A model generated the notes under the pieces. It did not search any database. It was not told where the DNA came from and worked only from the letters and a program-made list of their open reading frames with translations. Source: Enterococcus rotai (GTDB lineage Bacteria > Bacillota > Bacilli > Lactobacillales > Enterococcaceae). From it: a stretch of 64,000 nucleotides of DNA. The DNA is taken from positions 2,032,102-2,096,101 of the forward strand of contig NZ_CP013655.1 of assembly GCF_001465345.1 (NCBI RefSeq), given 5' to 3'. Numbering within the stretch: position 1 is the first letter of the stretch; the number at the start of each line of letters is the position of its first letter. The position numbers and the translations under genes are program-made. Of the stretch, positions 10,934 through 21,848 are shown one piece after another.

Positions 10934-11998
10934 ATGATACCTTATATATTATTATTTGTCAGCCTGATTGTCCTTTCACTCCTCGAGTTTTTTAGTAAGA
11001 AGAGAGTTTTTTTCATTATTGCAATGATAGAAATCATTTTATTTGCGGGTTTAAGATATGAGACTGGCTATGATTACTTATCATATAAAGCATTTTTTGA
11101 AAGAGTTAAGAGTTTTGGGGATATCATATCAGGTGGGATTGATGCTGAACCTGGTTACTTATTGACTAATTATATTGTAAAAATGTTTGGAATGGATTTT
11201 TCGGCTTTTATTTTAATCTATTCAGTTGTGACCTTAGCGTTATTAGGTTGGTTTGTTTACAAAAATGTGAGTTATCCAACAATGATTATCGTGTATTATG
11301 TCTCTCGTTTCTATTTTGTTAGGGACATGGGCCAAATAAGAGCATCACTAGTCGCAATTGTTTTTCTTTATTGTTTACCGGCGATTAAAGAAAAAAATCT
11401 TCCCAAAGTAGTTCTATTTTCACTTCTGGGAGCCTGTTTCCATATTGTTGCTTTGTTTATTATACCAGCTTACTTTTTTGTATGGATCATAAAAAAACTA
11501 ACATTGCAAAAAGTGTTTATTTTGACAATGATTTCAGCTTTGATAGGTGTGTTGTTCTTTTTCCCAGATCTATTTTTATGGGCGATTCCTTCAAGGTATG
11601 CGGGGTATTTTGCAGGTAAGTATATCACTGGAAAGTGGATATTTAATCCGATATTCATCATGCAGATGGGAATTACGATTGCCTCAATACTCTTTATTAA
11701 AGGGAAAAATAAAGAGTACAATGAGAGTTTAAACATATTATTAAGTTTGTATTTTTTATCTACATTATTTTTGATTATTTTCGGTCCCTTAGCAACTGTG
11801 GGTGGAAGAATCGGTACGATTTTTGCAACAGCTGAAATTTTGTTAGTCCCTCAATTGTTTCGATATGTATTCAAAAATCAATATCTTAATTTAGTTTGTT
11901 ACTATATATTTTGTGCAGTTGTTTTTTACTTAATATTTATTTTGTCAAATACGTATCAAGATTTTATTCCGTATCAAACGGTGTTCTCTGTTTCATAA
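10934..11998 (+). CDS. EpsG/Wzy-type polysaccharide polymerase
   Basis: The 354-residue membrane protein has about ten to twelve helices. It carries the EpsG-family signatures AGLRYETGYDYLSYKAFF near residue 37 and MGQIRASLVAIVFLY near 130. Members polymerise lipid-linked repeat units on the outer face of the membrane. With the Wzz-like gene before it and the Wzx flippase after it, this completes a Wzx/Wzy assembly route within the variable cluster. The ribosome binding site is GGAGTGAAG. The next gene starts 17 bases after the stop. Confidence 0.8.
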   Translation: MIPYILLFVSLIVLSLLEFFSKKRVFFIIAMIEIILFAGLRYETGYDYLSYKAFFERVKSFGDIISGGIDAEPGYLLTNYIVKMFGMDFSAFILIYSVVTLALLGWFVYKNVSYPTMIIVYYVSRFYFVRDMGQIRASLVAIVFLYCLPAIKEKNLPKVVLFSLLGACFHIVALFIIPAYFFVWIIKKLTLQKVFILTMISALIGVLFFFPDLFLWAIPSRYAGYFAGKYITGKWIFNPIFIMQMGITIASILFIKGKNKEYNESLNILLSLYFLSTLFLIIFGPLATVGGRIGTIFATAEILLVPQLFRYVFKNQYLNLVCYYIFCAVVFYLIFILSNTYQDFIPYQTVFSVS

Positions 11999-12015
11999 AA
12001 AGAAAGGAAGCAATT

Positions 12016-14415
12016 ATGATTAAAAAAACAAATGGCAAGTATTTAAAAAGCGGCATTGTCTTATTTTCACTTGCACTATTAGCAAATGTTGGATTTATGA
12101 CTGAAAATCAACGAGTGTTTGCAGAAGAGACTGAAAATACTGGCGATAACAGAATAAGTGAGACTAGTTCATCTAGTCATGCTGAACAATCCGCTCAGAC
12201 GACTTCTGAGTCTGAGACGAATAACTCTACTTCAGAGACTATTATGGAAGTACCAGAAAATAAAATTACAGAAGAAAATAATAAAGAACTAGGGAACGCA
12301 TCGAAACAAGAAGAAGGGGAGTACTTATTTAACCCGAATGATCGATCTGATTTAGCTATTACAGCACGCGCTGCTGGTGAAACACGTTCACTAATATCAG
12401 CAACTGAAAATAATCGCCCTGCTAAAGATTTTGTGGATATTTCGTCTCATAATGGAGCACTTTCCGTGGATAATTTTAACGAAATGAAAAAATATGGCGT
12501 TAAAGGTGTTGTTGTAAAATTAACAGAGTATACAACATACTTGAATCCTTTGGCAAAAGGACAAATTGAAAATGCACAACGTGCGGGATTGATTGTCTCT
12601 GTCTATCATTATAGTTGGTTTACAACAAAAGCAGGAGCTGAGCAAGAGGCGATATATTTTGCCCAAAAGGCAAATGAGCTAGGACTACCTAAAAATACAT
12701 TGCTAATAAATGATGCTGAACAGACGGAAATGACAGCTGGGAATGTCACTGAAAATTCTCTTGCATTTCAAAAGAAACTAAATAACTTAGGTTATTCTCG
12801 CGTAGCACACTATTCAATGTTTGATTGGTTTAACCGTAAAATACTGGATGAAGATAAATTGGGATCTGGAAACAGTTGGGTTGCAAGCTACCCCTATAAC
12901 CCTTTAGCAACAAATCTATTACATACCGGAAATGCTGCTTGGCAATGGAGTTCTGAGCTGACATTTCCTGGAGTTCCTGGAAGGTTTGACATAAATGTAT
13001 CTTATAATAATTTATTCTTACAAGCGACAGGAGATAATGGTATTAACTTAGCTAATTATCATACATCTGCACCGCTACAAGTGTATACAACTGATAATCT
13101 TTGGTATTATAATGATATTAATGAATTTTCTGTGGCAACTCAAGCAGAAAAATTGCCTAAAGATACAATTTTAAATATAAACTCAATCGAGTATAGCAAC
13201 AGCGGTTATCCTAGACTTGTCACAGACAAAGGCTATGTTTCCGCAAATAAAATGTACACTTCACCAACTATTAGCAATTTATCCAGTTATATTACTGACT
13301 TAGGGAAAGTCGTAGCATTAGGAAATATCTGGTATTACAATGATAAAGATAACTTTACGCAACAGACACAAGCAGGTCAAATTACTAAAAATACTGTTTT
13401 TGATGTTATAGGGATTGTTTTCAGTAAAACAGGTTACCCAAGGTTAGTTACAGATAAAGGCTATGTCTCTGCTAACAAAGCTTATGTCAATCAACTTGTA
13501 GCAAACTATTCTGATTATCTGATGACCACAGGAAAAGTTGCAACAACAACAAGTACTTGGCATTATAACAATAAAGATAGTTTTACCCAACAGTCACAAG
13601 TAGAGCAAATAGCGAAAAATACTGTTTTAACGGTAAAAGATATTGCCTATAGTGCAAGTGGTTATCCAAGATTAGTGACAGACAAAGGGTATGTTTCCGC
13701 AAATAAAGGATTTGTAACACCAATCGTTAATAACCATGCTGATTATTATTTGAAGACAGGAAAATTTTTGACGTCTCAAAACATTTGGTATTACAATGAT
13801 AAGGATCTTTTTTCAGTTGAAACACAAGCTGAGCCTTTGCCAAAAGAGACAATGATTGAAGTCAAGGATATTGTATATAGTGCAACAGGCTACCCAAGAT
13901 TAGTAACAGACAAAGGATATGTTTCCGCAAATAAAGGGTATCTTTCAGAGGCAATCAGTAATTTAAACAGCTATATTACTGAGCCGATGAAGGTTGTTAC
14001 TAAGGAAAGTATTTGGTACTACAATAGCAAAGATGAGTTTTCAAGTAAAACACAGGCTGAGAAATTAGCTAAAGACACATTACTAGATGTGAAAGCTATC
14101 GTTTATAGTGCAACAGGCTATCCAAGATTAGTTACAAATAAAGGGTATGTTTCTGCTAATAAAGCTTACGTTACTCCAGCAATTGGTAATATCGATAGCT
14201 ACATTACTAAGCCAGGAAAAGTAAGAGCTAAAGCTAATATCTGGCATTATAATAATAAAGACAACTTTGCAGTTGAGACACAAGTACAACAAATTACTAA
14301 AGGAACGACCTTCACAGTTAAAGGAATCGCCTATAGTGCAACTGGCTATCCAAGACTGGTAACAGATAAGGGATATGTTTCAGCAAATAAAACATATGTA
14401 GAAGAAATAAAATAA
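12016..14415 (+). CDS. Secreted GH25 muramidase with six C-terminal DUF5776-like repeats
   Basis: The 799-residue protein has a signal peptide (cleavage likely after VFA at 36), a Ser/Thr/Glu-rich linker to about 135, a glycoside hydrolase family 25 domain (about 138-335) and six tandem repeats of about 75 residues to the C-terminus. GH25 residues visible are D141 in VDISSHNG, D233 and E235 in INDAEQ, and D325 in GRFDINVSY. Each repeat has IWYYN-KD-F near its start and ends with GYPRLVTDKGYVSANK, resembling DUF5776 cell-wall-attachment repeats. It should bind the cell envelope and cut the peptidoglycan glycan strand. There is no LPXTG or other sorting signal. An upstream frame extends into the previous gene, but AGAAAGGAAG supports this ATG. 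Its place between polymerase and flippase genes is unusual. Confidence 0.85.
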   Translation: MIKKTNGKYLKSGIVLFSLALLANVGFMTENQRVFAEETENTGDNRISETSSSSHAEQSAQTTSESETNNSTSETIMEVPENKITEENNKELGNASKQEEGEYLFNPNDRSDLAITARAAGETRSLISATENNRPAKDFVDISSHNGALSVDNFNEMKKYGVKGVVVKLTEYTTYLNPLAKGQIENAQRAGLIVSVYHYSWFTTKAGAEQEAIYFAQKANELGLPKNTLLINDAEQTEMTAGNVTENSLAFQKKLNNLGYSRVAHYSMFDWFNRKILDEDKLGSGNSWVASYPYNPLATNLLHTGNAAWQWSSELTFPGVPGRFDINVSYNNLFLQATGDNGINLANYHTSAPLQVYTTDNLWYYNDINEFSVATQAEKLPKDTILNINSIEYSNSGYPRLVTDKGYVSANKMYTSPTISNLSSYITDLGKVVALGNIWYYNDKDNFTQQTQAGQITKNTVFDVIGIVFSKTGYPRLVTDKGYVSANKAYVNQLVANYSDYLMTTGKVATTTSTWHYNNKDSFTQQSQVEQIAKNTVLTVKDIAYSASGYPRLVTDKGYVSANKGFVTPIVNNHADYYLKTGKFLTSQNIWYYNDKDLFSVETQAEPLPKETMIEVKDIVYSATGYPRLVTDKGYVSANKGYLSEAISNLNSYITEPMKVVTKESIWYYNSKDEFSSKTQAEKLAKDTLLDVKAIVYSATGYPRLVTNKGYVSANKAYVTPAIGNIDSYITKPGKVRAKANIWHYNNKDNFAVETQVQQITKGTTFTVKGIAYSATGYPRLVTDKGYVSANKTYVEEIK
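13063..14403 (+). repeat. Six tandem coding repeats of about 225 bp
   Basis: The repeat array lies inside the GH25 gene. Every unit contains TGGTATTA or TGGCATTA near its start and a conserved block encoding GYPRLVTDKGYVSANK. The block varies at third codon positions, so the array is old or under selection rather than freshly expanded. Confidence 0.85.
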
Positions 14416-14458: not shown

Positions 14459-15895
14459 GTGAAGAAAGTATTGAGTAATATATTTTTTACGGCTATGTAT
14501 CAAGTAGTAATACTGATTGTTCCATTAGTGACGATGCCGTATGTATCAAGAATATTCGGAACAGAATTGCTTGGTATTAATTCATTTGTTATTTCAATTA
14601 TTGGTTTTTTGAACATGATTATTTTAATGGGCATGAGTCAATTAGGAACAAGAGAGATTGCCAAAGCCGACAAAAAAGATCGTGGATCAGTTTTCTTTCA
14701 GTTGTGGTTTATTCAATTAGCAAGTGGCTTGATTGTCACAAGCCTTTATCTACTAATTGTTTCGTTTTTTGTTGGTAATAAAGGTGTGTACTATATTCAA
14801 ATTCCTTATTTGATTGCATATGTTCTAGATATCTCCTGGTATTTTCTTGGAATTGGTGAAGTAAAAAAAGTGATTGTAAGAAACACAATTGTGAAATTTG
14901 GTTCCCTGATTTTGGTTTTCCTTATAGTAAAGAGCAGTTCAGATTTGCTACTATACATGGGGATAAACAGTATTAGCACATTTTTAGCAAATATCTTTTT
15001 TTGGATTAGTTTACTCAAGGAATTTAAAGCGTATGGAAAAATTAAAAAGTCATTTTCTGTTCCCTATTTGAAGCAGGCGTTGTTTTTACTTATTCCGTTA
15101 TTTGCGATTCAAGTGTATAATACGTTTGATAAGACGTTAGTTGGATTACTATCAACAAAAACAGAGCTTTCTTTCTATGATCAATCTCAGAAAATTGTTC
15201 GAATTGTGTTGTCAATTGTTACCTCAATCAGTTTAGTTATGATGCCTTTAATGGCTAAAGTAGATACAGGTGACAGCGAGGATAGTTCAAAACTACAGCT
15301 GTTATTGAAAAAATCAGTTGAATATACAACGTTGATTTCCTTATTATTAACTGTTTTATTAATGTGTAATTCACGTGATTTCGTTCGATGGTTTTTTGGA
15401 AATGAATTTGTTCCGATGACCTATAATATGATTTTTGTTAGTTTGATCATTGCACCAAATGCTTTTGGTGGAGTTTTAGCCAATCAGTTTACTTTAGCAA
15501 AAGGATTGCTGAAGCATTATTCTATTCCATTTATCGCAGGCGCAATAATTGATGTCATATTAAACCTTATATTGGTACCAAGATGGGGGGCAGATGGTGG
15601 GACTATTGCATTGATCGTTACGGAATTTTGTGTTTGTATCTTTAGGGTCTATGTCATTCGTAAATGGTTGGACCTCAAAGATATTTGCTCTGAATTTTTT
15701 AAATATACGATTATATTTGTTTTAATTTTAGTTTTGGGATTTTTAATTCCTAACTTTGTAGCATCTTTATTCTTGAATATGGTTATACGTTCAAGTATAG
15801 TGTTTGTTGTATTTCTTATTTTGATTTTTCTTTTTCAAACCAACATCTCAAAAGACTTCACCGCTCTTTTAAATAAAGTGAAAAAGAAAACGTAA
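14459..15895 (+). CDS. Wzx-type lipid-linked oligosaccharide flippase
   Basis: The 478-residue protein has about 12 to 14 membrane helices and the usual N-terminus of polysaccharide flippases of the MATE/MOP superfamily (VLIVPLVTMPYVSRIFG-type; here IVPLVTMPYVSRIFGTELLG). It moves undecaprenyl-pyrophosphate-linked repeat units from the inner to the outer face of the membrane. The start is GTG; no strong Shine-Dalgarno sequence precedes it, so translation may be weak or coupled. The N-terminus aligns with the family at this position, and a later start would cut the first helix. It follows the muramidase gene by 43 bases. Confidence 0.85.
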   Translation: MKKVLSNIFFTAMYQVVILIVPLVTMPYVSRIFGTELLGINSFVISIIGFLNMIILMGMSQLGTREIAKADKKDRGSVFFQLWFIQLASGLIVTSLYLLIVSFFVGNKGVYYIQIPYLIAYVLDISWYFLGIGEVKKVIVRNTIVKFGSLILVFLIVKSSSDLLLYMGINSISTFLANIFFWISLLKEFKAYGKIKKSFSVPYLKQALFLLIPLFAIQVYNTFDKTLVGLLSTKTELSFYDQSQKIVRIVLSIVTSISLVMMPLMAKVDTGDSEDSSKLQLLLKKSVEYTTLISLLLTVLLMCNSRDFVRWFFGNEFVPMTYNMIFVSLIIAPNAFGGVLANQFTLAKGLLKHYSIPFIAGAIIDVILNLILVPRWGADGGTIALIVTEFCVCIFRVYVIRKWLDLKDICSEFFKYTIIFVLILVLGFLIPNFVASLFLNMVIRSSIVFVVFLILIFLFQTNISKDFTALLNKVKKKT

Positions 15896-15920: not shown

Positions 15921-16781
15921 TTGAAATCAGATAATATTGTAAAACAACTACAAAAAAAAGAATTAGAAATATTGAAATTTGTGGATAATTTTTGCCAAAC
16001 TAAAGATATTCCATATTTTTTATCAGCTGGAACGTTACTAGGAGCGATTCGTCACAAAGGTTTTATTCCATGGGATGATGACATTGATTTAGGTATGACA
16101 AGAGAAAATTATGAACGGTTTATTCAATTGGTTCCTGAGGCTTTAAAGGATACTGATTATATGCTTCAAACTTATAAAACGGATGTTGGTTATCCGTTAC
16201 CGTTTTTAAAAATCATTAATTTAAAGACAACTTTAGTTGAATCTAATGCTAAAGACGGTAATGCTAAAAATGGTGTTTTTATTGATATTTTCCCATTTGA
16301 TGTTGTACCGGATAATAAAGCTTTAAGATGGCTGCAGATAAAAAAATGTAAGCTTTTGACATTTGTTATTCACACTAAAATGAATTACTATACGCGTGCT
16401 CAAACACCAGTAGGTGGAATGATATATAAAGTGTTAAATTTTTTCTGGGGTAGATATTCTGTAAGAGAACTTCTTGATAAAAGGCAGAATGAAATTGAAA
16501 AATATAATCAGTCAAATAATCACAATATGTCTATAGTAACTGCTACGACGGAATTTAGAACAGAAACATTAAGCAAGACGGAAATCAATGATGTAATCAG
16601 AATTCCCTTTGAGGACGGTATGTTTTTAGCAAATTCAAATTATGAACGAATGCTGGAACAATCTTATGGAGATTATATGGAATTTCCTCCTGTGGAAGAA
16701 CGTGGAACAAAACATGACATTGTTTATTTAAAATTGGATGATTTCGAGTTTGGAGATCCAACATATAAAAAGAAAAAATAG
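15921..16781 (+). CDS. LicD-family phosphotransferase
   Basis: The 286-residue cytoplasmic protein carries the LicD signature: FLSAGTLLGAIRHKGFIPWD followed by DDIDLGM (D52-D56 region), and GVFIDIFPFDVVPDN near 112. LicD proteins transfer a phospho-alcohol (phosphocholine, or ribitol or glycerol phosphate in relatives) from a CDP-linked donor to a sugar. The start is TTG, with GGAGG 7 bases upstream. The next gene encodes a LicC-like cytidylyltransferase fused to a PLP domain, the expected supplier of the CDP donor. The transferred group is not known; phosphoethanolamine or a derivative is my inference from the neighbours. Confidence 0.85.
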   Translation: MKSDNIVKQLQKKELEILKFVDNFCQTKDIPYFLSAGTLLGAIRHKGFIPWDDDIDLGMTRENYERFIQLVPEALKDTDYMLQTYKTDVGYPLPFLKIINLKTTLVESNAKDGNAKNGVFIDIFPFDVVPDNKALRWLQIKKCKLLTFVIHTKMNYYTRAQTPVGGMIYKVLNFFWGRYSVRELLDKRQNEIEKYNQSNNHNMSIVTATTEFRTETLSKTEINDVIRIPFEDGMFLANSNYERMLEQSYGDYMEFPPVEERGTKHDIVYLKLDDFEFGDPTYKKKK

Positions 16782-16814
16782 TAGAGTCTGACAAAGGTCA
16801 CAGGAGGGATAAAC

Positions 16815-18632
16815 ATGCAAGGTCTTATTTTAGCAGCTGGTTTAGGAAGCAGAATGAAAGAGTTCACTAAAAGTACCACTAAAAGTATGGTTGAAGTTAA
16901 TGGGAAGTCATTAATAGAACGGATGTTACGCCAATTAGATAATCTTAATTTAGAAAGAATTGTGATCGTCGATGGCTATAAATATGATGTTATGGAGGAC
17001 TATGTTAAAGAAATCCAAATCAAGACACCAGTACTATTTGTAACGAACCATGATTACGATAAAACAAATAATATTTATTCTGTCTTTATGGCTAAAGAAT
17101 TAATGTGTCAAGAAGATACTATTTTACTAGAATCAGATTTGATTTTTGCAGATCAATTACTTGATGAGGTCATGGCTTCTGATTATAAAAATCTAGCCGT
17201 TGTCTCGAAGTTTGAATCTTGGATGGACGGTACAGTTGTAAAAATTGATGGAGATAAAAATATTATTGATTTTATTGATAAGAAGCGATTTAATTTTAAT
17301 GAAACGAGTAGTTATTATAAAACTGTTAATATTTATAAATTTAGCAAAGAATTTTCAAAATCTATCTACTTTCCATTTCTAGAAGCTCAAATGAGTGCTT
17401 TTGGTAAGAATGAATATTATGAAACTACATTGAAAACAATTACACAATTTGATGCTAGTTTAGTTAAGGCATTGGATATTGAAGATATTCCTTGGTATGA
17501 AATTGATGATCTGCAAGATTTAGATGTTGCCAGTTCCCTCTTTAATACAACACCGTCAAAAAAATTAGATGCATTTCAAAAAAGATATGGCGGCTATTGG
17601 AGATATCCAAAAGTAATTGATTTTTGCTATCTCGTTAATCCATTTTATCCCCCTAAGCGAATGGTTGATGAAATGAAATCGAATATGGAACGCTTGATTA
17701 TTGATTATCCTTCTGGTCTTCAAGTGAATTCTTCCTTAGTAGCAAAATACTATAATGTACCTGAAAAGCATGTAGTTGTGGGAAATGGTGCAGCAGAATT
17801 AATTAAATCATTGATGGAAAAGAATGCTGGGAAATATGGGATTATTGCGCCAACTTTTGAAGAATACCCAAACCGTGTTAGTAAAGAACAAATTGTAAAA
17901 TACTATCCTACAAATAAAGATTTCCAATACACAGCTAAAGATATCATGGCGTTCTATTCAGAAAATGATATTGATTATTTGGTTTTAATAAACCCAGATA
18001 ACCCCACTGGAAATTATATTCCAAAACCAGATGTTATAGGTTTATTAGAATGGGCAAAAGTACGCGGAATTACTATAATTTTAGATGAATCCTTTAATGA
18101 TTTTGTTGATTTTGAAGAAGTTCCTTCTCTAATCAATCGTGAGACATTAATAGCACATCCTAATTTAATTATTATTAAAAGTATTTCCAAATCATTTGGG
18201 GTTCCAGGAGTACGTTTAGGCTTTTTAATGACCAGTGATGAATCATTGATCAGCTATATTAAATCAGATGTTTCAATTTGGAATATCAACTCATTTGGAG
18301 AATTCTTCCTCCAAATTTTTGAAAAATATAAAAAAGACTACTTGTCAGCTTTAGATTTATTTTATAAAATTCGTAAAGATTTTAGTTCTGCAATGGCCCA
18401 AGTATCTGATTTTGAGGTAATCGAGTCACAATCAAATTATTTCACTTGTCGTCTTACTGGTGATATAAGTGCACGGGAATTAGCCACAATACTATTGGAT
18501 CAGGACAAAATCTTTATTAAGGACTTGTCTGGAAAAGATGGTTTTGAGGGTGAGTACGTAAGAATTGCAGTGAAAAAAAGTGATGAAAATGAAAAAATTG
18601 TTGAAGCCTTGAAACGAATATTGAATCGCTAG
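16815..18632 (+). CDS. LicC-like cytidylyltransferase fused to CobD/HisC-like PLP enzyme
   Basis: The 605-residue protein is a two-domain fusion. Residues 1-240 are a sugar-nucleotidyltransferase-fold domain of LicC type, with LILAAGLGSRM, KSMVEVNGKSLI, NNIYSVFMA, LLESDLIF and WYEIDDLQDLDVA. Residues about 265-605 are a fold-type-I PLP domain with NPDNPTG (N393), DESFNDF, the likely PLP lysine K459 in SISKSFGVPGVRLGF and a C-terminal Arg in GEYVRIAVKK. The IFIKDLSGKDGF stretch before that Arg resembles threonine-phosphate decarboxylase (CobD) as much as histidinol-phosphate aminotransferase. The fusion implies that the phosphorylated amine made by one domain is activated with CTP by the other, feeding LicD. 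Decarboxylation versus transamination is undecided. GGAGG precedes the ATG by 9 bases. Confidence 0.85.
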   Translation: MQGLILAAGLGSRMKEFTKSTTKSMVEVNGKSLIERMLRQLDNLNLERIVIVDGYKYDVMEDYVKEIQIKTPVLFVTNHDYDKTNNIYSVFMAKELMCQEDTILLESDLIFADQLLDEVMASDYKNLAVVSKFESWMDGTVVKIDGDKNIIDFIDKKRFNFNETSSYYKTVNIYKFSKEFSKSIYFPFLEAQMSAFGKNEYYETTLKTITQFDASLVKALDIEDIPWYEIDDLQDLDVASSLFNTTPSKKLDAFQKRYGGYWRYPKVIDFCYLVNPFYPPKRMVDEMKSNMERLIIDYPSGLQVNSSLVAKYYNVPEKHVVVGNGAAELIKSLMEKNAGKYGIIAPTFEEYPNRVSKEQIVKYYPTNKDFQYTAKDIMAFYSENDIDYLVLINPDNPTGNYIPKPDVIGLLEWAKVRGITIILDESFNDFVDFEEVPSLINRETLIAHPNLIIIKSISKSFGVPGVRLGFLMTSDESLISYIKSDVSIWNINSFGEFFLQIFEKYKKDYLSALDLFYKIRKDFSSAMAQVSDFEVIESQSNYFTCRLTGDISARELATILLDQDKIFIKDLSGKDGFEGEYVRIAVKKSDENEKIVEALKRILNR

Positions 18633-18662
18633 AAAGTGGATTTACAAAGGAGAACGAACATT

Positions 18663-19715
18663 ATGGTTTTATTGTTACCTATGGAAACTAGTTATTTAAA
18701 TACTAGTGGACATATTTACGACTCAGAATTCCTCAATTTAGTACAGTTATCTGATGGCAGTGTTAAATTTGATGAACGAACTTTATTTTTAAATCAAGAA
18801 GAGAAAGACTTTTTGAATGCGCAAAAAATAGTTGAGCTCTCTAATAGTATTGTTGTTTTTAAAAACAAAGGAAAATGGGGATTGATCGCCAATCTTCCAA
18901 AAGAGGAGTATATTAAAGGCAACGTTAAAAGTCATGAATTAGTTCTTCCTTCTACAGTCCAAGGAATGCTTAGTAATTTTCACGGATATAACGGTGAAGC
19001 AGCTCCTGTTTTACTAGGACACGAAAGTTCAATTGATTTAGAAGACTTTGTCAGGGAAAATGACCCAGATAAGCAACATATCATCAAGGACTATTACTTG
19101 TATATTTATCAAGGAGAAAAAGCTGAGAGATTGCTTTCTTTATATAAAAACTTAGAGAGACTCTTTATTGGTGATGGCCATCACAGGCTTTATACGACCT
19201 CTTTATCAAATTTCAAACAAACTGTTTTTGCTTGTATCATGAGCTTTGACTATTTAGATATTTTACCGATACATCGTTTATTGGAAAATGTGACAGACGA
19301 GATGTATATCCACGCTTTAAAATTTTTAGGTAAAAAGTTTGAATTAGAGAAGGTCACAGATGATTCAGATTTACCCAAAGGTTATGTTAAAATGTCACGA
19401 GGAAATGATCACTACCTGATTCGTTTAATTGATTTAGCTTCGGATGCTTTTTGGAATAATGATATTTATCGATTGAATACTCAAATCATTTCCCAAGCCT
19501 TTCGGAGTTTTGATCAAGGTGAAATCCAATATATATCAGAAGAAATGTTGAAAAATAACAAGTCATTTTCTGATGAAGATGTCATCTTAGAAACGCATGC
19601 ACTTTCTAAAAAAGAATTCATTGAGGCTGCAAAAAATGATACAGTCTTGCCACCAAAATCAACTTGGGTTTATCCAAAGTTTCCATCTTTTTTACTTATG
19701 AATAAATATCAATAA
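18663..19715 (+). CDS. DUF1015-family protein, possible free amino-acid kinase
   Basis: The 350-residue protein fits DUF1015, with GDGHHRLYT at D171-T179 and the typical C-terminal VLPPKSTWVYPKFPSFLLM. The DGHHR motif resembles the DGH-R motif of ParB/Srx-fold free-serine kinases (SerK, SbnI); that comparison is from memory and unproven. If correct, it would phosphorylate serine or threonine and supply the PLP domain of the upstream fusion protein. A GTG 27 bases upstream is in frame, but AAAGGAG at 18646-18652 supports the ATG used here. It is shorter than the roughly 400 residues I expect for the family. The gene lies between the cytidylyltransferase fusion and the opine-dehydrogenase homologue, with short gaps, so it is co-transcribed. 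Confidence 0.7.
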   Translation: MVLLLPMETSYLNTSGHIYDSEFLNLVQLSDGSVKFDERTLFLNQEEKDFLNAQKIVELSNSIVVFKNKGKWGLIANLPKEEYIKGNVKSHELVLPSTVQGMLSNFHGYNGEAAPVLLGHESSIDLEDFVRENDPDKQHIIKDYYLYIYQGEKAERLLSLYKNLERLFIGDGHHRLYTTSLSNFKQTVFACIMSFDYLDILPIHRLLENVTDEMYIHALKFLGKKFELEKVTDDSDLPKGYVKMSRGNDHYLIRLIDLASDAFWNNDIYRLNTQIISQAFRSFDQGEIQYISEEMLKNNKSFSDEDVILETHALSKKEFIEAAKNDTVLPPKSTWVYPKFPSFLLMNKYQ

Positions 19716-19731
19716 TTTTGGAGGTGAAAAC

Positions 19732-20850
19732 ATGAAAATTTGTATTGTTGGTTTTGGAAATATTGGAAGTGCAATAGCTGGAAGGCTTTCCTTAAGTGGA
19801 CATGATGTTCGAGTCTTTACATCGACAGAATTAGGACAGGATTGTCCATTTACGCTAAAGGAAATGGATTCAACTGATGAGAGACAAACTACTATTGCTC
19901 TTGTTACAAATGATCTAGAAACTGCAGTGGCGGATATTGATATGCTTATTGTAACGTACCCATCTTTTATGTTGGAAGCTTTTGCAAAAAAAGTTGAGCC
20001 TTTTTTGATCAAACCGATATTTTTTGGTATTGTCCCAGGAAGTGGTGGGGCCGAATATATAACGAAAAAAATATTTACGCAAAAACATGTGATTTTCGGA
20101 TTAGATAGAGTCCCTTACATTGCTCGCTTGATCGAAAAAAATCATTCAGTTGAGTTTTCAAAAAAAGCTTCAGTAAATGTTGCCGCGATTCCTAAAAAAG
20201 AAACTGCAGTGGTTGCAAGAATGCTTGAAGAACTTTTACGATTACCCATTTATCAGTTGCAAAATTTTTTAGAAGTCTCATTAACCCCTTCAAATGCCAT
20301 TTTGCATACTTCCAGAATCTACAGTATGTTTAAGGACTACGCTACAGGTGTTACTTATCCTAAAATCCCTTATTTTTACAGAGATTGGACATTGGATTCG
20401 TCTGAAAGTTTGATTGCTTTAGATCAGGAATTGAAAAATATTATTTTAAAAATGCCAGAACTTGATTTATCGGAAATTAAAACGATTCGTGAACATTATG
20501 AATCACCAACTGCTAAAGCGATGACAGATAAAATAAAGAGTATTTCATCTTTTAAAAATATTATTTCGCCTATGAAACAACTTTCTGATCAAACGTTTGT
20601 TCCAGATTTCACTTCAAGATATTTTACTGAGGATCTTCCGTTTGGGTTACTTATTATTAAAGGTTTCGGTTTGATTACCGAAGTAGAAACCCCAGAAGCT
20701 GATAGAATTATTTTATGGAGTCAAAAGTGGTTAAATAAAGAATATCTAACGAATGAAGGAAAACCTGGTCAGGACTTTTTGGTGTCAGGAGTCCCTCAGG
20801 CATATGGAATTAAAACATTGGAAGATGTCTACCATTTTTATCAATCTTGA
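19732..20850 (+). CDS. Octopine/nopaline dehydrogenase-family protein
   Basis: The 372-residue protein starts with a Rossmann dinucleotide motif (GFGNIGSA, residues 7-14). It has a C-terminal domain like opine dehydrogenases, with LTPSNAILHTSRI near 185 and PYFYRDWTLDSSESLIALDQ near 215. Opine dehydrogenases reductively join the amino group of an amino acid or amine to a 2-oxo acid such as pyruvate, using NAD(P)H. In a polysaccharide cluster next to LicD and a CDP-donor fusion enzyme this points to an N-carboxyalkyl substituent on the polymer. The substrate is not visible in the sequence. GGAGGTG gives a strong start. There is no sign of truncation. Confidence 0.75.
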   Translation: MKICIVGFGNIGSAIAGRLSLSGHDVRVFTSTELGQDCPFTLKEMDSTDERQTTIALVTNDLETAVADIDMLIVTYPSFMLEAFAKKVEPFLIKPIFFGIVPGSGGAEYITKKIFTQKHVIFGLDRVPYIARLIEKNHSVEFSKKASVNVAAIPKKETAVVARMLEELLRLPIYQLQNFLEVSLTPSNAILHTSRIYSMFKDYATGVTYPKIPYFYRDWTLDSSESLIALDQELKNIILKMPELDLSEIKTIREHYESPTAKAMTDKIKSISSFKNIISPMKQLSDQTFVPDFTSRYFTEDLPFGLLIIKGFGLITEVETPEADRIILWSQKWLNKEYLTNEGKPGQDFLVSGVPQAYGIKTLEDVYHFYQS

Positions 20851-20897
20851 TGGTGAAAAAAATAATGGAGTAAATGAGTGGGAATGGAAGTGTTATT

Positions 20898-21848
20898 ATG
20901 AGTAAGATACTTATTACCGGAGGTGCTGGATTCATTGGATCTACGCTTGCGAATTATTACAGTAAAAACCATAGTGTTGTTGTTGTTGATGACTTGTCTA
21001 TGGGAAAACAAGAAAACTTAATTGAATCAAAAAATATTACTTTTATTCAGGGTAGTGTTACAGATAGAAACTTAATGTCACAATTATTGGAAAAACAACA
21101 GTTTGATTACATTTTCCACTTAGCAGCTATAGCGAGTGTAGCTGATTCGGTTCAAAGACCAGTTGAAACACATCTTGTAAATTTTGATAGTGTATTCTAT
21201 CTCTTGGAATTAGTAAAAAAACAGTCAGGTCTGAAACGTTTATTATTTTCCTCATCTGCAGCTGTTTATGGAGATGAACCAACTTTACCAAAACAAGAAG
21301 AGTCTGTTATTAGACCCTTAACTCCATATGCTATTGATAAATTTTCAGCTGAAAAATATGTAGTTGATTACTGTCATCTTTATGGTGTACCAACAAGTGC
21401 CGTTAGATTTTTTAATGTATATGGTCCAAATCAAAATCCTAATTCTCCATACTCTGGAGTTATTTCAATTGTGATGGATTGTTATAAACAACTTTCAAAA
21501 AATAAAAATACTTTTTTTACAATGTTTGGCGATGGGAACCAGTCAAGAGACTTTATATATATTGATGATGTTATTAAAGCATTAGATTTGATTGTGAACT
21601 CAAAAGAAACTTTAGGACAGGTATATAATGTTGGAACTGGAAACAGTGTCACTTTGAATGAATTGATTCATACAATTGGGAAATTATTAGATAAAGACTT
21701 ACCTGTCAACTATGAAAGTGAACGTGAGGGAGATATCCGTGAATCTCTAGCGGATATATCCAAAATTAAAGGAATTGGTTTTGAACCTAAATTTGATATT
21801 AAGGAAGGACTTCGAAATTATATTAAGCATGAACTAAATTTAGATTGA
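20898..21848 (+). CDS. NAD-dependent NDP-sugar epimerase (GalE-like extended SDR)
   Basis: The 316-residue protein is an extended short-chain dehydrogenase with TGGAGFIGS at the N-terminus, SSSAAVYGD near 120 and the catalytic YAIDK (Y-x3-K) near 145, followed by FFNVYGPNQNPNSPYSG. It most resembles UDP-glucose/UDP-GlcNAc 4-epimerases and would supply a galacto-configured NDP-sugar to the glycosyltransferases. An ATG 24 bases upstream has a GGAG only 3 bases before it, while GGAAG sits 7 bases before this ATG, which fits the family N-terminus. It is the last gene before the terminator at 21884. Confidence 0.82.
   Translation: MSKILITGGAGFIGSTLANYYSKNHSVVVVDDLSMGKQENLIESKNITFIQGSVTDRNLMSQLLEKQQFDYIFHLAAIASVADSVQRPVETHLVNFDSVFYLLELVKKQSGLKRLLFSSSAAVYGDEPTLPKQEESVIRPLTPYAIDKFSAEKYVVDYCHLYGVPTSAVRFFNVYGPNQNPNSPYSGVISIVMDCYKQLSKNKNTFFTMFGDGNQSRDFIYIDDVIKALDLIVNSKETLGQVYNVGTGNSVTLNELIHTIGKLLDKDLPVNYESEREGDIRESLADISKIKGIGFEPKFDIKEGLRNYIKHELNLD

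Follow-up and report, generated by a model that had tools for sequence, protein, structure and literature searches.

A run of five genes in a 64,000-nucleotide stretch of the Enterococcus rotai genome (the window; G000:C1:2032102-2096101, in a genome assembled as one contig of 3.75 Mb) is the subject of this analysis. The five open reading frames lie on the same strand at positions 15921-21848, with gaps of 3 to 33 bases. On balance they probably encode, as far as can be judged from sequence comparison, a modular route to an N-carboxyalkylated phosphoethanolamine decoration of the enterococcal polysaccharide antigen (EPA). An earlier sequence-only reading had described these as consecutive genes for LicD, a fusion of a cytidylyltransferase and a pyridoxal phosphate (PLP) domain, DUF1015, an opine dehydrogenase and an epimerase; Pfam and NCBIfam searches show that the five genes are real and located as follows.

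15921..16781, + strand: LicD-family phosphotransferase (PF04991, E 5e-48, 164.6 bits against a cut-off of 22.6), with a WDDDID motif in the translation
16815..18632, + strand: fusion of a cytidylyltransferase and a PLP domain, 605 amino acids (NTP_transferase at residues 3-181, Aminotran_1_2 at residues 278-599)
18663..19715, + strand: short-type DUF1015 (PF06245, 47.6 bits, cut-off 25.8); the open reading frame is listed from a GTG at 18636
19732..20850, + strand: opine dehydrogenase homologue (PF02317, E 5.7e-27, 95 bits, cut-off 30)
20874..21848, + strand: nucleotide-sugar epimerase of the short-chain dehydrogenase/reductase type (PF01370; the best NCBIfam model, GalE, is below its cut-off)

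In the proposed route, DUF1015 would phosphorylate free L-serine to O-phosphoserine, the PLP domain of the fusion would decarboxylate this to ethanolamine phosphate, and the cytidylyltransferase domain of the same protein would convert the latter into CDP-ethanolamine. The opine dehydrogenase would join the primary amine, either as the phosphate or already as the CDP derivative, to a 2-oxo acid (pyruvate being the default guess) and reduce the imine; the LicD-family protein, the proposed transferase of the phospho-amino-alcohol, would then move the phosphodiester onto the EPA decoration unit. Much the same chain from serine to LicD had been proposed in the sequence-only reading. Gene neighbourhoods and conserved residues support it, with the exception of the epimerase; the oxo acid, the stage of N-alkylation and the choice of serine over threonine are what we infer.

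The fusion protein

A genome scan returned at least 567 relatives of the fusion, of which 80 loci were kept for neighbourhood analysis; many of these end at contig edges. By their record titles they belong to groups of Bacillota, Bacteroidota, Actinomycetota and Spirochaetota, plus one archaeal metagenome-assembled genome. Viral contigs held no match to the patterns of the window's protein.

The union of a cytidylyltransferase with a CobD/HisC-like PLP domain is borne out by the Pfam, NCBIfam and PDB matches. In the PDB the first half matches LicC (1jyk) and, over residues 2-240 only, 6pd1, and the PLP domain (approximately 17550-18632) has the CobD/HisC fold. Its best NCBIfam model is CobD (TIGR01140, 166.5 bits), followed by HisC (135.2 bits), both under their cut-offs. 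The closest solved structure to the PLP half is 6oux, a 'threonine phosphate decarboxylase-like enzyme' (E 8.6e-47), followed by 3ftb, 1lc5 (CobD) and 3fkd; this ranking supports the decarboxylase-like character suggested earlier for the domain. 6oux is presumably SMUL_1544, a phosphoserine decarboxylase of norcobamide synthesis. Residues K459, R467 and R583, presumably the PLP lysine and two conserved arginines, are kept in at least 97% of 86 aligned fusion rows, which places the domain in the HisC/CobD group of PLP proteins. The PLP half of the fusion plausibly works like CobD, with which (1lc5), as with 6oux, it shares the PLP fold and its best sequence matches; it differs from both in being joined to a cytidylyltransferase, in lying in glycan loci and in scoring below the equivalog cut-off.

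A different combination of the same two activities is found in 6pd1 (nucleotidyl transferase/aminotransferase class V), which is presumably PntC-AEPT of Treponema denticola. It too joins a cytidylyltransferase to a PLP enzyme, but the PLP half in the window is of the Aminotran_1_2 type and not class V, and neither of the features of the PntC-AEPT type, a class V half and a phosphoenolpyruvate (PEP) mutase in the genome, is found for the window. An aminoethylphosphonate product was considered for the window and set aside as unlikely, since no true PEP mutase is present in the genome (26.9 bits, cut-off 319.55). Among 47 fusion genomes tested (five genomes, one record from the plasmid collection, and 41 genomes taken from the 80 loci), PEP mutase occurs in two, those of L032 and L035.

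The aminotransferase half of 6pd1 also illustrates another possible role for the PLP domain, namely that of a transaminase making some other phosphorylated amine, for example serinol phosphate, which would be activated with CTP and transferred while DUF1015 does something else. HisC-family aminotransferases do match the domain, and a serinol phosphate aminotransferase acts in Campylobacter capsule synthesis. Such a role is nevertheless unlikely: the best PDB match is decarboxylase-like and well ahead of the HisC chains, and DUF1015 is linked both to serA/serC-like genes and to the fusion itself.

Decarboxylation followed by activation with CTP would resemble the Lic-1 pathway (LicA, LicB, LicC, LicD), in which, according to PMC10434233, a CTP-activated phospho-alcohol is transferred by LicD to a surface glycan; the first domain of the fusion is LicC-like. 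Unlike in the phosphocholine pathway of Lic-1, the alcohol would here come from serine through the fused PLP domain and be tailored by an imine reductase, and the five-gene set has no LicA or LicB gene.

Reductases adjoining the fusion

An opine dehydrogenase adjoins the fusion (on the same strand and within 300 bp) in 21 of the 80 loci and a protein of the ornithine cyclodeaminase (OCD)/mu-crystallin family in 17, while neither is found in 42, an upper bound as contig ends cut many loci. No locus has both, against 4.5 expected under independence (P 0.003, relatedness ignored). Single-query and profile searches gave the identical 21/17/0 split; two loci missed by one clustering (L081 and L097) are included in these counts. 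Of the 39 reductase genes found in the 80 loci, 38 lie directly beside the fusion.

On a tree of 40 fusion rows, switching between the two families took at least 11 changes, compared with a mean of 13.4 (range 9-17) in 200 label shuffles; this tree left out L014-L016, which are near copies of the window, and every locus with neither reductase. Judged by it, the exchange of opine dehydrogenase and OCD beside the fusion is nearly free. One representative OCD protein has as solved relatives pyrroline-2-carboxylate reductase, thiomorpholine-carboxylate dehydrogenase, mu-crystallin and a putative ornithine cyclodeaminase. Taurine, which is analogous to phosphoethanolamine, is the substrate of a tauropine dehydrogenase of the OCD family. 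That two unrelated imine-reducing families should swap beside one enzyme is most simply explained if both act on the amine that the fusion produces, and the alternation lends support to the reductive N-alkylation step of the sequence-only reading.

The decoration might alternatively derive from CDP-ethanolamine while the opine dehydrogenase has a different amine as its substrate, either an amino acid or an amino sugar within the glycan. Opine dehydrogenases act on many amino acids, and the 42 loci in which no reductase adjoins the fusion would suit this arrangement. We give it a small chance, considering the direct adjacency of 38 of the 39 reductase genes, the alternation of two unrelated families, and three residues (R126, R195 and K267) that are invariant in the opine dehydrogenase clade and not found in octopine dehydrogenase.

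The opine dehydrogenase

The opine dehydrogenase of the window aligns over nearly its full length with octopine dehydrogenase (3c7a, E 1.7e-35). H192, R296 and D301 stand opposite His212, Arg324 and Asp329 of that enzyme, presumably the catalytic His and Asp and the Arg that binds the oxo acid; all three are kept without exception by the 24 full-length members of the clade (aligned without the fragments L033 and L060 and the later L173), as befits a PF02317 protein. R126, R195 and K267 are also invariant across the clade and are T, I and A in octopine dehydrogenase, as read by eye; they could hold a phosphate. The near full-length match and the catalytic residues are shared with 3c7a and with N-(1-D-carboxylethyl)-L-norvaline dehydrogenase (1bg6), from which the clade is set apart by these three invariant residues and by the LicD glycan locus in which the gene lies.

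When 398 genomes of the phylum were searched in the reverse direction, an opine dehydrogenase match was found in 18; the fusion is present in three, the window included. The strongest match outside the window (355 bits) is at L173, where a region at L173:3883-10353 contains two LicD genes, an OCD gene, the opine dehydrogenase, a class V PLP protein like PhnW/AepZ (best model PhnW-AepZ, below cut-off) and a different fusion, in which a glycerol-3-phosphate-cytidylyltransferase-like domain is joined to a Gfo/Idh/MocA domain. The genome carries a true PEP mutase, and the locus may represent a phosphonate counterpart of the proposed route. Its neighbours tie the opine dehydrogenase clade to LicD and cytidylyltransferase chemistry even where the fusion of the window's type is absent. 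Neither LicD nor the fusion lies near the three matches that follow (L174-L176, at 197, 186 and 174 bits).

DUF1015 as a candidate serine kinase

The short-type DUF1015 more likely starts at the ATG at 18663 than at the GTG at 18636, since its three enterococcal orthologues have 350 amino acids. A DUF1015 profile built from mixed types gave six matches up to E 10 among 177,635 PDB sequences: 1vk1 (0.0014), the designed protein 8qai (0.094), the free serine kinase SerK (5x0b, 5x0j and 5x0e, approximately 0.1) and one other (1.5). We assume 1vk1 to be PF0380. According to PMC5120207, PF0380 is closely homologous to TK0378, a serine kinase. The HE, DGHHR and P-K-T motifs are collinear between DUF1015 and the serine kinase matches (5x0b; TK0378, PMC5120207); unlike SerK, DUF1015 is listed by Pfam as a family of unknown function, and its likeness to the kinase is at the edge of detection.

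Genomic links also point to phosphoserine metabolism. In the genome of the window an ordinary DUF1015 is the third gene of a head-to-tail serC-serA-DUF1015 array (L100:3131-6654; G000:C1:1032000-1044000), and a serA-like gene lies beside ordinary DUF1015 in 18 of 30 loci (flanks of approximately 1.5 kb), four of them from this genus; these neighbours come from single-query matches and are serA-like rather than proven SerA. This ordinary DUF1015 may convert serine to phosphoserine and back. The fusion occurs in four of 395 Lactobacillales genomes and the short-type DUF1015 in the same four (four very weak matches of 21.8-25.7 bits over some 55 positions, from one genus, were not counted as short type), while some DUF1015 match is found in 120. 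Some form of DUF1015 is also present in 42 of the 47 fusion genomes. The short type adjoins the fusion in Fusobacterium (L007) and in L018, L025 and L090 as well. In L017, from another family of the order, it is one gene away from the fusion, with an OCD gene between them.

DUF1015 is a likely candidate for a free L-serine kinase. The phosphorylation of serine by DUF1015, as first suggested, is supported to the extent that serA/serC-like neighbours, co-occurrence with the fusion and the weak SerK profile match tie the family to phosphoserine; serine rather than threonine is the part we infer. With threonine as the amino acid, phosphothreonine would yield 1-amino-2-propanol phosphate, in keeping with CobD TIGR01140 as the best NCBIfam model of the fusion. 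We regard this as quite improbable, given that the serA/serC links and the SerK match point to serine and that the characterised SerK is inactive on threonine (PMC5120207).

Two further ideas about DUF1015 were tried. That the DUF1015 of the locus offsets a missing serine pathway is partly borne out: a strong SerC (E below 1e-100) occurs in 31 of 38 genomes without a locus DUF1015 and in none of the five non-enterococcal genomes with one (P 0.0008). Once the enterococci are added to the genomes with a locus DUF1015, the share with a strong SerC is 4 of 9, compared with 31 of 38 without one (P 0.035), and the idea fails in the enterococci, where both are present (4/4). Genome G397, in which an ordinary DUF1015 has a serA-like neighbour, also weighs on it. 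That ordinary DUF1015 replaces SerB was rejected, as 10 of the 47 fusion genomes have SerB above the cut-off; the genome of the window has none (39.6 bits, cut-off 144.15).

Two loci have unusual arrangements around DUF1015. At L017:4566-19936 the fusion, OCD and short DUF1015 genes lie beside accessory Sec genes (Asp1, Asp2, SecY2-like and a weak GtfB), with an adjoining protein of 523 amino acids that has no Pfam or NCBIfam match. At L055:7683-8939 the fusion gene overlaps at its end with a gene for a third kind of DUF1015, which has DGNHS instead of DGHHR.

Observations that weigh against the route

Several observations count against the pathway as drawn. The fusion does not reach the CobD/HisC equivalog cut-offs (TIGR01140, 166.5 bits against 290.55), for which reason it was not filed as CobD. 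The 42 of 80 fusion loci with neither reductase adjacent imply that the fusion also serves other ends, and the two fusion loci outside the window in the 398-genome sample have no adjoining reductase. In L173, where the fusion is lacking, opine dehydrogenase and OCD occur together. The short DUF1015 type searched alone does not match SerK significantly (E 0.7-1.3, below two calmodulins). Few loci have DUF1015 next to the fusion: 3 of 80 by profile, plus L055. The 3 of 80 is a lower bound, since both profile and single-query searches missed the divergent L055 copy, which was found by Pfam. Finally, the enterococci with short DUF1015 also have a strong SerC (4/4).

The gene set and its locus

Of 22 genomes of the genus, four carry the fusion, that of the window among them, and the order flippase-LicD-fusion-DUF1015-opine dehydrogenase-epimerase is identical in the other three carriers; a set whose six-gene order is kept in all carriers is not a chance assembly. 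Of the five-gene neighbourhood, pairs or triples recur in other genomes, and the full set is seen only in the four enterococci. The epimerase, which had been counted as part of the pathway, appears in this gene order in those four alone and reads as a nucleotide-sugar epimerase. As it is not a general companion of the fusion, it was dropped as a pathway member and is probably a bystander to the amino-alcohol route.

Two further genes of the locus lie before the set:

14459..15895, + strand: Wzx-type flippase (PF01943), upstream of LicD
11896-14415: EpaU-like glycoside hydrolase family 25 (GH25) protein with six DUF5776 matches, inside the decoration locus

Upstream there are also a Glycos_transf_4 protein, an RmlA-like NTP transferase, RmlD and an ABC-2/Wzt exporter. 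Rhamnose genes, a polyprenyl-phosphate transferase-like glycosyltransferase and ABC export genes are the upstream marks of an EPA-type locus, and they are present here; the gene set fits a position at the decoration end of such a rhamnan locus. In PMC7188991, EPA decorations are reported to differ among isolates and to underlie the biological activity of EPA. The E. faecalis V583 locus likewise has rhamnan genes upstream, and LicD-family and GH25 genes in its decoration region; its decorations, unlike the one proposed here, are ribitol-phosphate teichoic acids (PMC7188991). The terms phosphocholine, ethanolamine and carboxyethyl are absent from the main text of that paper.

Precedents and significance

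No description of this pathway was found in the open-licence literature, which leaves most subscription journals uncovered, so that an earlier description is possible. The same literature gave nothing joining DUF1015 to a serine kinase, nothing relevant joining opine dehydrogenase to a cytidylyltransferase (unrelated mussel work only) and nothing for combinations with carboxyethyl or carboxyethylamino. The O-antigen of Proteus mirabilis O14 contains 2-[(R)-1-carboxyethylamino]ethyl phosphate. The precedent offered earlier, N-(1-carboxyethyl)ethanolamine phosphate in O-antigens, was not met in this literature either; the main text of a Proteus O-antigen survey (PMC5560731) is without AlaEtnP, ethanolamine, carboxyethyl, opine and octopine. 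If the route is correct, it would link DUF1015, a family of unknown function, to serine phosphorylation, add a bacterial route by which CDP-ethanolamine is made de novo, and lead one to expect zwitterionic N-carboxyalkyl phosphodiesters both on the EPA of certain enterococci and on the surface glycans of many Bacteroidota and Bacillota.

Other contexts of the fusion

A broader proposal, to which we give a little less than an even chance, is that of a widespread module in which serine phosphorylated by DUF1015 (or pathway phosphoserine) would be decarboxylated and CTP-activated by one fused enzyme. Interchangeable N-tailoring by an opine dehydrogenase or a ketimine reductase, and elsewhere perhaps by methyl- or formyltransferases, would follow; LicD or a CDP-alcohol phosphotransferase would then place the product on glycans or lipids, and opine-type zwitterionic phosphodiesters would be common on the surfaces of gut bacteria. 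The contexts of the fusion loci with neither reductase would each be compatible with a CDP-amino-alcohol product whose N-tailoring is optional. A CDP-alcohol phosphotransferase cluster is found in L030, L031, L036, L048 and L086 and in the plasmid loci L008, L010, L012 and L013, and methyltransferases lie beside the fusion in L009, L043 and L089; Pfam was run on selected neighbours only (L031 for the CDP-alcohol phosphotransferase, L043 for the methyltransferases). Proteins that combine a YidC (60KD_IMP) domain with a sulfatase or a glycerophosphotransferase domain are encoded near the fusion at L066:7347-9977 and L064:7788-9701, one of each having been tested. In Fusobacterium vincentii a formyltransferase-domain protein is encoded directly upstream of the fusion (L007:11225-12004); the record of this locus is classed as a plasmid of 2.1 Mb and has a single annotated feature.

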